Below are positions 45,312 through 47,839 of a DNA stretch of 64,000 nucleotides, piece by piece. Each line of letters starts with the position of its first letter. Position 1 is the stretch's first letter. Origin of the DNA: Amphritea japonica ATCC BAA-1530. GTDB taxonomy: Bacteria > Pseudomonadota > Gammaproteobacteria > Pseudomonadales > Balneatricaceae. Where the stretch lies: NCBI RefSeq assembly GCF_016592435.1, contig NZ_AP014545.1:558001-622000 (forward strand). Direction: 5' to 3'. Made by a program: the position numbers and the translations under genes. The notes beneath the pieces were generated by a model. It did no database searches and was not told the origin of the DNA. It saw nothing but the letters and a program-made list of their open reading frames with translations.

Positions 45312-46613
45312 ATGGATAAGCTATTAGACCTCTGGCACGCGTCAGGGGTATACAATGTAAGCCCGGGCCAGATCGTCATGATCTTAGTAGGCCTGTTGCT
45401 TCTGTTCCTTGCGATTCGCAAGAACTTTGAGCCTCTATTGCTGGTTCCTATCGGTTTTGGCGGCATCATGGCCAACATCCCAGAAGCAGGCCTTGCTTTC
45501 TCAGCCGTTGAGAATGCGCTGCACCTGGGGGGTCCTGAAGTTATTAGCTCTCTAGCGACCGCACTTGGATTGGATACGACTGATCCTTATGCAGTAAAAG
45601 AAGCTTATAATGCTGCTGCTGCTCAGGCACATACTGCGGCTGTTTATGCTGCAAATGATGCTGGCTACAACAATGGCATGATGTATAACTTCTACACTGT
45701 AGCGATTGCATCGGGCGTTGCGCCACTTCTGATCTTTATGGGTGTTGGTGCGATGACTGACTTTGGTCCTCTGCTGGCTAACCCTAAGACACTGTTCCTC
45801 GGGGCTGCTGCGCAGTTTGGTATCTTTGCTACAGTGTTGGGTGCGGTGGGTTTGACTACTCTGGGTGTGATGGATTTCACTATCCAGGATGCTGCAGCGA
45901 TCGGTATTATCGGCGGTGCTGATGGTCCGACTGCGATCTATGTGGCTTCTCTGTTGGCTCCAGATCTATTGGGTGCAATTGCGGTAGCTGCATACTCCTA
46001 TATGGCTTTGGTACCAATGATTCAGCCGCCGATTATGCGTGCGCTGACAACAGAAGCTGAGCGTAAGATCTCTATGGTTCAGCTGCGCCATGTGCCTAAA
46101 ACTGAAAAGATTATGTTCCCTATCGTGTTGCTGATGCTGGTTGCTATGTTGCTGCCAGATGCTGCTCCGCTGTTGGGTATGTTCTGTTTTGGTAACCTGA
46201 TGCGTGAGTGTGGTGTTGTTGATCGTTTGAGCGATACAGCTCAGAATGCTTTGATCAACATTGTAACCATCTTCCTGGGTCTGTCAGTTGGCTCTAAGCT
46301 TTCTGCTGATAAGTTCCTGGATGTGGAAACTCTGGGTATCTTGCTATTGGGTGTGGTTGCATTTGGTATCGGTACTGCTTGTGGTGTGCTGATGGCTAAG
46401 TTTATGAACAAGATGCAAGGTGGTAACTCCATCAACCCACTGATTGGATCAGCAGGCGTTTCCGCTGTACCTATGGCAGCGCGTGTATCTAACAAATTAG
46501 GTCTGGAGTCTAACTCTCAGAACTTCTTGTTAATGCATGCAATGGGACCAAACGTAGCCGGTGTTATCGGCTCTGCGGTTGCAGCAGGCGTTATGATTAA
46601 GTTTGTAGGCTAA
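45312..46613 (+). CDS. oadB: Oxaloacetate decarboxylase Na+ pump, membrane beta subunit
   Basis: The 433-residue integral membrane protein has about ten hydrophobic segments and the OadB hallmarks [28 protein letters not shown], the [13 protein letters not shown] stretch with the essential Asp, and [23 protein letters not shown] near the C-terminus. It couples carboxybiotin decarboxylation to Na+ export. It starts 13 bases after oadA. A strong terminator follows. Confidence 0.97.
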
Positions 46614-46626
46614 ATGCTTCAATGTT

Positions 46627-46657
46627 AAAAAAGGCTGCCTTATGGCAGCCTTTTTTT
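46627..46657 (+). terminator. Intrinsic terminator of oadGAB
   Basis: A run of As, AGGCTGCC, loop TTAT, GGCAGCCT and seven Ts form a terminator 14 bases after the oadB stop. It is also symmetric enough to act on the minus strand. Confidence 0.93.
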
Positions 46658-46670
46658 GTGCTGAACGCTT

Positions 46671-46896
46671 AGACCGGAAAACAAGTTTTCCTAGCTAGCC
46701 GGAGGCTGTTCCTCCTTACTAGACGCGACTACGTCGCTTGCTAGTAGCTAGAAAAAAAATACGCCTGTAGATTTATAGATATAAAAAAACCGCCATCAGG
46801 CGGTTTTATGTTTTTCTAGCGACTAGTAGGAGTCCAAGACTCCGTTCTAGCAAGTGACGCAGTCACGTCTAGCTAGGAAAGCTTGCTTTCCGGTCT
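46671..46896. repeat. Compound inverted repeat made of CTAG-linked hairpin modules
   Basis: A 226-bp element between convergent oadB and the deacetylase gene. The outer 28 bases of each side (46671-46698 and 46869-46896) are reverse complements with only two differences. Left arm hairpins: A 46676-46691 (GGAAAAC/GTTTTCC), C 46701-46715 (GGAGG/CCTCC), D 46725-46737 (GCGAC/GTCGC). Right arm hairpins: C' 46829-46843 (GGAGTC/GACTCC), D' 46854-46866 (GTGAC/GTCAC), A' 46876-46891 (GGAAAGC/GCTTTCC). Modules are separated by CTAG-containing linkers. A/A' and D/D' differ by paired, compensatory changes. Modules C and D occupy swapped positions in the two arms. The arms flank a central bidirectional terminator. 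I know no named family that matches. Confidence 0.85.
46783..46810. terminator. Central bidirectional terminator within the compound repeat
   Basis: A7, CCGCC, loop ATCA, GGCGG, then TTTTATGTTTTT. On the minus strand the hairpin ends in seven Ts, suited to terminate the deacetylase gene; on the plus strand it would back up the oadB terminator. Confidence 0.85.
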
Positions 46897-46900
46897 TAAT

Positions 46901-46937
46901 AGAAGTGATTGCTGGCTAATAGCCAGCCATCACTTCT
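46901..46937. repeat. Long hairpin spanning the stop codon of the deacetylase gene
   Basis: AGAAGTGAT and GCTGGCT on the left pair with AGCCAGC and ATCACTTCT on the right, with one T/C mismatch and a three-base AAT loop: 16 pairs in 37 bases. It begins 4 bases from the compound repeat and covers the last codons and stop (46916-46918) of the minus-strand gene. No T tract follows on the minus strand, so it is not itself a standard terminator; RNA 3' end protection is possible. Confidence 0.8.
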
Positions 46938-47839
46938 AAGTGCGCCTGCACACTAAATGCCAGAGAAACGGGGTTGTAACCCCCTTCTAAGACAGAAACA
47001 ATGCGTCCGCCACAAGTGGTGCGCGCTGCGTCCATGAGAAGCTGAGTGGCCCAGCGGTAGTCCTCTTCGGTAAGGTTAAGATCAGCCATTGGATCTTCGT
47101 GGTGTGCATCAAAGCCAGCGGAGATAAAAATAATATCCGGTTTATGGTTCTGAATAGCTGGAAGCCAGTACTTTTCTAACTGTTCACGGAATACTGAGGC
47201 GCGGGTATGCGCTTCGATCGGACAGTTAACAATATTATCCCTCTGAATGTCACAGTAACGTTCAGGATAGTAAGGGTGCTGGAAGGTAGAGCAAACCAGA
47301 ACTTCCGGCTTATCTTTAAAGATGTCGACCGTGCCATTACAGTGATGCACGTCAAAATCAACAACGGCAACCCTGTTTACATTAGGTTGTTGCAGGGCGT
47401 GCATGGCGCCAATCGCAACGTTGTTATAAAAGCAAAAGCCCATAGCTGCGTTGTGTTCAGCATGATGGCCTGGCGGGCGAACTGCACAAAAGGCATTATC
47501 GACCTTATCAGATAGCACTTGATTGGTTGCCAATATACTAGAGCCGGCGGCAAGGCTGGCAGCGTGAAGCGAGTCCGGGCAGAGGGCCGTATCTTCATCG
47601 GCATAAACAACCCCTTCGTCGGGTTGCTTCATTTCCAGTCTTTTCTGATGCAGGTTGGCATGTGCCAGTTGAATCTGCTCAGGGGTGACATGTACCGATT
47701 CCATCTGTTTAAGCTGTTCGATTAAGCCGGTCTTCTGCAGTACTTTCTGAATGGCAAGAAGGCGAATCGGGCTTTCTGGATGTTCTGGCCCCATATTGTG
47801 CAGGCCACAATCGTGATGGGTAATAAATGCAGTCGTCAT
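46916..47839 (-). CDS. Histone-deacetylase-family hydrolase (class II HDAC / acetylpolyamine amidohydrolase-like)
   Basis: The 307-residue protein has HPESPIRLLAIQ near the N-terminus, RPPGHHAEHNAAMGFCFYNNVAIGA with the tandem active-site His pair, VVDFDVHHCNGT with Zn-binding Asp and His, and ISAGFDAHHEDPM plus SVLEGGYN with the remaining ligands. All residues expected for a Zn-dependent deacetylase are present. Bacterial relatives act on acetylpolyamines or other small acetyl amides; the substrate here is unknown. It stands alone, converging on oadB, with the compound repeat and central terminator at its 3' end. No clear ribosome binding site precedes the ATG; a TTTGATCAAA palindrome lies there instead. 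Confidence 0.9.
   Translation of the reverse strand: MTTAFITHHDCGLHNMGPEHPESPIRLLAIQKVLQKTGLIEQLKQMESVHVTPEQIQLAHANLHQKRLEMKQPDEGVVYADEDTALCPDSLHAASLAAGSSILATNQVLSDKVDNAFCAVRPPGHHAEHNAAMGFCFYNNVAIGAMHALQQPNVNRVAVVDFDVHHCNGTVDIFKDKPEVLVCSTFQHPYYPERYCDIQRDNIVNCPIEAHTRASVFREQLEKYWLPAIQNHKPDIIFISAGFDAHHEDPMADLNLTEEDYRWATQLLMDAARTTCGGRIVSVLEGGYNPVSLAFSVQAHLEVMAGY

Follow-up and report, generated by a model that had tools for sequence, protein, structure and literature searches.

What kind of element lies between oadB and its convergent neighbor in Amphritea japonica, is it peculiar to this site, and what could have assembled and kept its many hairpins? In the window (the whole stretch of 64,000 nucleotides that was analyzed, from a genome of 3.83 Mb in a single contig), inspection by eye and by script identified an inverted repeat of 226 bases at 46671-46896, the arms of which are built of short CTAG-joined hairpins; in this respect, coordinates included, the earlier note was right. 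The element is placed between oadB, the gene upstream of the left arm (oxaloacetate decarboxylase beta subunit, 45312..46613, + strand; PF03977, E 2.4e-155), and a convergent histone-deacetylase-family gene upstream of the right arm (46916..47839, - strand; PF00850, E 3e-83), the protein of which has its closest relatives in named genomes in ten records with 92-97% identity (nine Amphritea, one Oceanospirillales). A first terminator-like hairpin of oadB, an inverted repeat GGCTGCC..GGCAGCC with a T-run (46627..46656, +), is located outside the element. The left arm (46671..46751, +) consists of hairpin A, CTAG, hairpin C1, CTAG, hairpin D and CTAG-TAG-CTAG, with CTAG starts at 46691, 46695, 46719, 46741 and 46748; the right arm (46816..46896, -) consists of hairpin A', CTAG, D', CTAG, C2 and CTAG-TCG-CTAG, with CTAG starts at 46816, 46823, 46847, 46869 and 46873. 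Three-base TNG spacers between linkers result in a heptad CTAG-TNG. The last CTAG of the left arm is followed by an A-run (46752..46759, +), as in most arrays, and the arms enclose, as the earlier note had stated, a bidirectional terminator between convergent genes: sequence and fold reveal a two-way terminator-like core (46783..46815), in which the GC hairpin CCGCC-ATCA-GGCGG is positioned between an A-run and T-runs. The tetranucleotide CTAG is scarce in the window (86 observed versus 240 expected from base composition), and ten of the 86 sit in the element, between 46691 and 46876. The outer 31 nt of the arms (46671-46701/46866-46896) showed 90% complementarity in the repeat search, and the RNA fold of 46660-46910 reached -117.7 kcal/mol (z -11.56; equally good shuffles 0/200). 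A comparison of 46300-47300 with Rfam gave 14 matches at E <= 1, none of which reached its gathering score.

The two paired differences between the arms proposed at the outset were recovered. Hairpin A (46676..46691, +; stem GGAAAAC, loop AA; GGAAAACAAGTTTTCC at 46676-46691) and hairpin A' (46876..46891, -; GGAAAGC, AA, GCTTTCC; GGAAAGCTTGCTTTCC at 46876-46891) differ in one pair, A46681-T46686 against G-C, and hairpin D (GCGAC-TAC-GTCGC, 46725-46737) differs from its counterpart on the other strand (GTGAC-TGC-GTCAC, 46854-46866) in C46726-G46736 against T-A plus one loop base. The corresponding modules D (46719..46744, +; CTAG-AC-GCGAC-TAC-GTCGC-TTG-CTAG) and D' (46847..46872, -; CTAG-AC-GTGAC-TGC-GTCAC-TTG-CTAG) are of type I (see below) and score 44.2 and 44.7 bits to the covariance model R1, of whose seed set both are members. 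The relocation of a module C between the arms, by contrast, held only in part: the orders A-C-D and A-D-C are correct as orders of hairpin size, but no single module has moved, and the claim of the same module C in both arms was mistaken. The left one reads GGAGG-CTGTT-CCTCC (module C1, degenerate, 46695..46722 including both CTAG ends, +), the right one GGAGTC-TTG-GACTCC (module C2, near type II, CTAG-AAC-GGAGTC-TTG-GACTCC-TA-CTAG, 46823..46850, -); length, GGAG..CTCC and CTAG ends are shared by the two, and little else.

Is the element peculiar to this site? A search of this genome and its relatives with the modules and with a covariance model had been set as the test that could refute the first interpretation; copies are many, and it is the reading as a one-off sequence that fails. 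The 226-base query gave 39 DNA matches in this genome, and the 19-mer of hairpin D was present, with up to three mismatches, at 27 genome places versus 3 for the reversed control. Applied to this genome, model R1, built from 18 type I modules with YYAG starts, gave at least 117 matches at E <= 1 and at least 95 at E <= 0.01 among the best 150 first-look candidates scored. All R1 counts are lower bounds, because the best candidates alone were scored (150 per genome for the genus, 66 in the family survey and 26 in the order survey) and the E limits differ between the searches (1, 0.01, 0.001 and 0.0001, over which the count of this genome falls from 117 to 29); units with CTCG linkers or AA loops are undercounted, above all in genome G012, because R1 was built from YYAG-start type I modules.

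The modules follow a common plan, YTAG-A(A)C-stem-TNC-stem-(T)TG-CTNG, in which linkers and loop are fixed and the stem is free and mostly Watson-Crick. Inspection of 20 stretches and collection of modules led to two main types: type I is YTAG-AC-5 bp-TNC-5 bp-TTG-CTAG and type II is YTAG-AAC-5 or 6 bp-TNC-..-TG-CTAG, and longer and shorter stems occur besides. A strict module search of 60 merged pieces totaling 222,858 bases (the window, together with pieces selected for their matches or Y1 genes) detected 82 modules versus 1, 4 and 2 in three Markov shuffles, and a looser finder detected 102 modules in 83 arrays of the same pieces (64 single-module, 19 two-module), densities that do not represent genome averages because most pieces were fetched for holding matches. 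Among the 38 distinct type I modules of this genome, picked by linker letters, the loop is TNC in 33 and the loop-closing pair C-G in 35. A third hairpin class with a CAAG-type centre (AACAAGTT or GCAAGC) includes hairpins A and A' of the window as well as three more hairpins of the pieces that have a CTAG-like linker nearby; another CAAG palindrome occurs in four copies. Tandem heptads TTGCTCG and TGGCTCG, i.e. linker plus spacer with no hairpins between, were observed at L035:4940-5040 and in L239.

The position of the arrays relative to genes was evaluated for 68 of the 83 arrays (15 with poor linkers were dropped), and none of the 68 lies inside an ORF of >= 100 aa. For the 55 arrays that remained after omission of 13 at piece edges, with neighbors taken as ORFs picked by length, a co-oriented gene ends on the 5' side of the array in 45 cases (p 2e-6), the median distance from stop codon to array being 39.5 nt at convergent and 40 nt at co-directional sites. 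Convergent intergenes hold 28 of the 55 arrays, co-directional ones 22 (17 co-oriented with the gene, 5 counter-oriented) and divergent ones 5, versus 37, 65 and 18 of 120 comparison intergenes of >30 bp in the same pieces; within the window, 4 of 24 intergenes are convergent. Arrays usually end in CTAG-AAAAA: the sequence after the 3' linker is A-rich (>= 4 of 6) in 49 of 68 arrays, whereas none of the 68 is A-rich ahead of the 5' linker. Only 28 of the 68 arrays have a terminator-like hairpin less than about 130 nt away on their 3' side, and 16 have one on their 5' side (17 versus 12 within 100 nt by a stricter finder), so that the tie between array and terminator is moderate. Neighboring matches 60-400 bp apart, evaluated for 103 of the 117 positions, comprised 8 inward-facing, 0 outward-facing and 6 same-direction cases, and the window element is one such inward pair, with outer hairpins closely similar in both arms. 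Judged from location and polarity, the arrays probably belong to the transcript, where they would make up the final stretch of the 3' untranslated region, before the terminator or on both sides of it.

R1 matches were obtained in 11 of 17 Amphritea-genus genomes (from at least 1 to at least 118 per matching genome among the best 150 candidates each) and in 12 of 116 genomes of the family (best 66 candidates), the twelfth being a genome outside the genus with one weak match; in a 293-genome draw from the order, this genome alone matched (best 26 candidates, stricter E limit). At the oadB site, several Amphritea-group records (L036-L041) carry arrays of differing make-up, including a related, apparently decayed one in A. 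balenae (L037); no hairpin array is present in L042-L044, and in Neptunomonas, Neptuniibacter and the other relatives examined terminators were seen at this site and no such array. At the 3' end of valS, an array follows the stop codon in 11 of 16 genomes, with a relic in G004 and none in G005, G006, G015 and G016; it precedes the terminator where one is visible (the piece of G014 ends before any). Of the supposed shuffling of modules, the variation in module number and type between species at one site was thus borne out, the movement of C was not. The valS flank also appeared as a variable spot with probable defense genes (ABC-3C components, L117:10774-11858 and L118:10547-13606, and in the same stretches a protein that combines STAND NTPase and metallophosphoesterase domains).

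The linkers at valS are CTAG in G000, G001, G003, G010 and G014, CTCG, TTCG or TCCG in G002, G007, G008, G009 and G013, and mixed in G012. Counts of the ends TNGCTAGAAAAA versus TNGCTCGAAAAA were 34 versus 9 in this genome (reversed-pattern controls 4 and 7), 50 versus 7 in G001 (15 and 2), 51 versus 10 in G014 (11 and 3), 27 versus 19 in G008 (8 and 7) and 17 versus 45 in G012 (6 and 0); those of G002 (13 and 6; controls 4 and 6), G007 (9 and 2; controls 7 and 8) and G013 (2 and 7; controls 7 and 3) were near the controls, save the CTAG count of G002 (13 versus 4). All eight G012 stretches chosen for CTCG ends held arrays, with 15 distinct linker-anchored hairpins (102 Watson-Crick and 3 unpaired cells) and loops AA, ATA or AAA instead of TNC, the loop cut depending on the choice of the script; the same genome has at least 17 R1 matches. 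Tandem blocks were observed in G012 as well (L211-L215), 94 and about 144 bases apart by match positions and holding CT(A/C)G hairpins, part of them with GTAG-like palindromes. The assumption of whole CTCG lineages on the basis of CTCG ends was abandoned, as the stretches of G002 (4), G007 (2), G013 (two of three) and G004 (one of three) look like chance; nine stretches from G002, G007 and G013 contained one array, in G013. In consequence, CTCG-type arrays were seen only at valS in G002 and G007, and at valS plus one more site in G013. Given the differing valS linkers, end counts and G012 loops, the plan is constant across genomes but its loop and linker are not, and G012 is the clearest case.

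How perfect are the stems, and at which level are they kept? The seed alignment of 18 modules, which predates R1 and came from the window plus pieces found by DNA similarity or Y1 search, contains 18 both-side changes, 0 one-side changes and 4 unpaired cells in 90, and its pairing drops to 19-66% when the partners are slid. Of the 190 cells in the 38 distinct type I modules of this genome, 175 are Watson-Crick, 2 are wobble and 13 are unpaired, and in 30 modules from other Amphritea the figures are 133, 7 and 10 of 150; these modules were picked by linker letters, and most pieces had been fetched with R1, which favors paired stems. The paired changes are differences between copies at different sites. 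At the orthologous valS 3' end, the first hairpin is perfect in 6 of ten genomes and carries 1-3 mismatches in 4, that of this genome being among the broken ones, and none of the ten showed a compensated change; in-place selection for pairing is therefore not supported. The conclusion that paired changes imply selection for structure was accordingly right in that stems vary by paired changes, but selection in place was not borne out. Comparison of the copies shows that they spread as near-perfect palindromes, and the covariation would also be explained by amplification of different perfect palindromes or by hairpin-templated correction of DNA. The rarity of wobble pairs (2/190; 7/150) speaks for upkeep at the DNA rather than the RNA level.

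This rarity would suit an alternative in which supercoiling drives the hairpins out of the duplex, the complementary strand of the module loop being a C-GNA-G loop, an unusually stable DNA mini-hairpin. Such sites would be used by the nucleoid or by gyrase or would mark topological boundaries, and hairpin-templated repair would keep the stems perfect. The C-G loop-closing pair in 35 of 38 distinct modules fits as well, and so do the convergent sites (28/55 arrays versus 37/120 intergenes in the pieces and 4/24 in the window). However, modules taken singly have weak DNA folds (-4.2 to -5.7 kcal/mol for three modules, both strands, with no consistent strand difference) and somewhat better RNA folds (-7.9 to -9.0 kcal/mol, four strands), and the co-orientation with the upstream gene favors a role of the RNA strand. 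We regard such a DNA-level device as rather unlikely, but as a rival to be taken seriously.

To which kind of repeat does the family belong? That no named family matches holds insofar as the tag differs from those described, yet the general REP/BIME kind fits, and among the architectures described those of the GTAG-1 and GTAG-2 REPs come nearest. In the main text of PMC3733652, by Di Nocera and colleagues, REPs are tagged GTAG or CGTC, are located downstream of genes at convergent or unidirectional sites and fall into stem sub-families; in GTAG-1 and GTAG-2 the tag is followed by an unpaired dinucleotide, and a 3-base motif stands on the other side. The Amphritea repeats resemble these members of the REP/BIME class, as portrayed there, in being palindromes of 20-40 bases in many intergenic copies downstream of genes, in the succession of tag, unpaired dinucleotide, stem-loop and 3-base motif, in stem sub-families with complementary changes and in the frequent pairing of copies in opposite orientation. 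They are REPs in the broad sense, i.e. palindromes of 20-40 bp with many intergenic copies, located mostly downstream of genes at convergent or co-directional sites, and the opposite-orientation copies around a linker (the window arms; 8 inward pairs, 0 outward) correspond to BIMEs. In contrast to the GTAG-1/-2 REPs of that text, the tag is YTAG (or CTCG), a like tag also follows the hairpin, and some units are joined head to tail; wobble (G-T) pairs, said to be frequent in published GTAG REPs, are few in the Amphritea modules, and no RAYT was seen framed by Amphritea modules. The GT(A/G)G that GTAG-tagged REPs carry directly beside the palindrome or up to two bases away is missing: of 88 type I modules (51 from this genome, 37 from its relatives), none has GTAG or GTGG in the position two bases ahead of the stem, and 58 have YTAG there. 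That the repeats form a REP-like family is very likely; owing to the tag, the second tag, the few wobbles and the lack of a framing RAYT, we class them with the REP/BIME kind, as a variant tagged CTAG, and outside the GTAG/RAYT group.

Other systems agree in part. PMC8266576 describes the Marinomonas group 3 REP as a perfect palindrome of 5 bp that stands two bases away from its tag; the stem is largely free, the loop bases are fixed, a mismatch is harmful, and the tag determines whether cleavage occurs at CT or CA. Palindrome, free stem and fixed loop of this REPtron Mb (group 3 TnpAREP) recur in the Amphritea modules; according to the same source it differs in its loop TTNA, its tag GTAG and the concentration of REPs near tnpA, whereas Amphritea Y1 loci hardly carry modules. 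The CGTC-tagged REPs, as outlined in PMC3733652, are likewise palindromic repeats apparently without dedicated transposase, but have 8-9 bp stems, 4-5 base loops and a CGTC end and occur mainly in alpha-Proteobacteria. The E. coli BIME shares the mosaic of hairpin types, opposite orientation and intergenic location, and differs, according to PMC8266576, in longer hairpins, a bulge and the GTAG tag. In the open-licence literature, outside of which most subscription journals lie, no paper naming CTAG-joined repeats was found; the main text of PMC3733652, whose consensus sequences stand in figures and did not enter the comparison, contains neither 'CTAG' nor 'Oceanospirill'. Set apart by the text descriptions of known REPs, the CTAG-tagged repeat is best read as new relative to these.

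Which enzyme could have mobilized the units? Y1_Tnp matches are present in 12 of 17 Amphritea-genus genomes, and this genome has four, two of which are broken by stops. When 26 Y1 loci were scanned with model R1, to at most about 1.5 kb on each side of the gene, three matches at E <= 0.5 appeared in 2 of the 26, one of them strong and about 640 bases from the gene (locus L008); no Y1 transposase gene among the 26 is flanked by inverted module copies. Transposase presence also does not track repeat abundance, G004 having at least 18 R1 matches and no Y1_Tnp and G007 and G013 the opposite. The candidate of a RAYT-flanking repeat was rejected, as modules are hardly present at the 26 Y1_Tnp loci. 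At L009:1444-1890 and downstream, a RAYT-like Y1 gene is framed by a long mosaic of GTAGGAG-type REPs, which by their sequence appear to be another REP family of this genome, one of classic appearance. These data bear on the possibility that the repeat is an ordinary RAYT-mobilized REP, its GT(A/G)G tag standing four bases further out (AGTRG-CTAG-AC-hairpin) and its cognate RAYT lost, degraded or distant. AGTGG or AGTAG does precede the first linker in 24 of 68 arrays, the frequency of Y1_Tnp in the genus and the two stop-broken copies would agree with a lost partner, and tag, unpaired dinucleotide, palindrome and 3-base tail fit the GTAG-1/-2 REPs as given in the main text of PMC3733652. Against it stand the tag counts two bases before the stem, the single strong module match at the Y1 loci within the scanned distance, and the RAYT locus L009, which with its different GTAGGAG-type REPs constitutes a built-in positive control; this origin is judged unlikely, though still to be reckoned with.

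Further candidates were discarded. IS91/Helitron elements have a CTAG end and a GAAC/CAAG target; such a (Y2) origin was rejected, with Y2_Tnp (PF04986) in only 1 of 17 genomes. Integron-like cassettes, considered since modules cluster around valS, did not agree with gene maps and the att motif, the stretches holding ordinary plus accessory genes; a whole transposon bounded by arms 1-3 kb apart did not agree with the mostly convergent-gene 3' ends and the other genes between; and carriage by phage or plasmid was dismissed, as no viral contig holds the exact degenerate module and no plasmid matches the 226-base element. A four-helix-bundle protein (PF05635, 113 aa) encoded between holC and valS (L115:10687-11028 and the orthologous intergenes) might have helped the spread. 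Its gene lies near the holC-valS arrays in eight R1-matching genomes (G000, G001, G003, G008, G009, G010, G012, G014; at least 17 to at least 118 matches), G004 with its R1 matches encodes a 49% homologue, and with G002 and G011 left out the gene was not found at this site in G005, G006, G007, G013, G015 and G016, all without R1 matches. However, this is one locus in related genomes, the relatedness of which may explain the pattern, and G007 and G013 have CTCG-type valS arrays without the gene there; to our knowledge no recombinase activity is known for PF05635 proteins, and the proposal is very improbable.

As a whole, the explanation considered best, and with some reserve probable, is that the element represents a REP/BIME-like family of non-coding palindromic repeats that is specific to the genus and occupies many sites. 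In each unit, a stem of mostly 4-7 bp is closed by a very small invariant loop, which is TNC or, in a second class, AA/AAA. The hairpin is preceded by A(A)C and followed by TTG/TG, and invariant linkers (YTAG, or variants such as CTCG) flank it on both sides. The linker can also connect successive units head to tail, and CTAG-AAAAA is the usual end of an array. REPs are held to slow 3' exonucleases and to back up termination. By analogy, the transcribed Amphritea hairpins would slow 3' exonucleases and aid termination, and at a convergent site the two inward-facing arrays would shield each gene from the read-through of the other; for such a 3'-end RNA role the chances appear evenly balanced. 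A competing view, in which the arrays are neutral debris of parasitic repeats tolerated only in 3' regions and without present function, is a serious minority possibility. The decay of orthologous arrays (4/10 valS hairpins broken; the oadB-site array of A. balenae) speaks for it and against the REP/BIME-like explanation, as does, for the neutral view, the variation of model matches from 0 to at least 118 between species of one genus; the valS array in 11 of 16 genomes, on the other hand, and the polarity away from stop codons (45/55), which exceeds the need of gene avoidance, speak against it.

With respect to spread, the REP/BIME-like explanation is less sure than for the 3' end: the units may have been transferred as folded single strands by an HUH (Y1) enzyme acting in trans, a tentative proposal that we hold to be somewhat doubtful. 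By extension from the group 3 REP, CTAG could carry both the guide (AG) and the cleavage dinucleotide (CT), which would explain the joining at CTAG. A more far-reaching version, which seems improbable, envisages a self-joining palindrome system. In it, single-strand transfer would be guided by the AG and cut at the CT of each CTAG, and units would insert into each other at CTAG so that chains grow. Linker (CTAG/CTCG) and loop (TNC, AA/AAA) would drift between species as the specificity of an unseen enzyme changes; this enzyme would be no neighboring RAYT and might stand outside the known HUH group.

REP-like repeats are widespread, and how their copies multiply and why their stems stay perfect is the general question addressed by this family, which is near to the RAYT-dependent REP architecture but has another tag, head-to-tail joins through that tag and no adjoining transposase found. 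Since linker and loop differ among species within a single genus, orthologous sites, that at the 3' end of valS for example, offer a comparative series in which one can ask if the enzyme changes along with tag and loop, and if 3'-end arrays have any effect on the mRNA.
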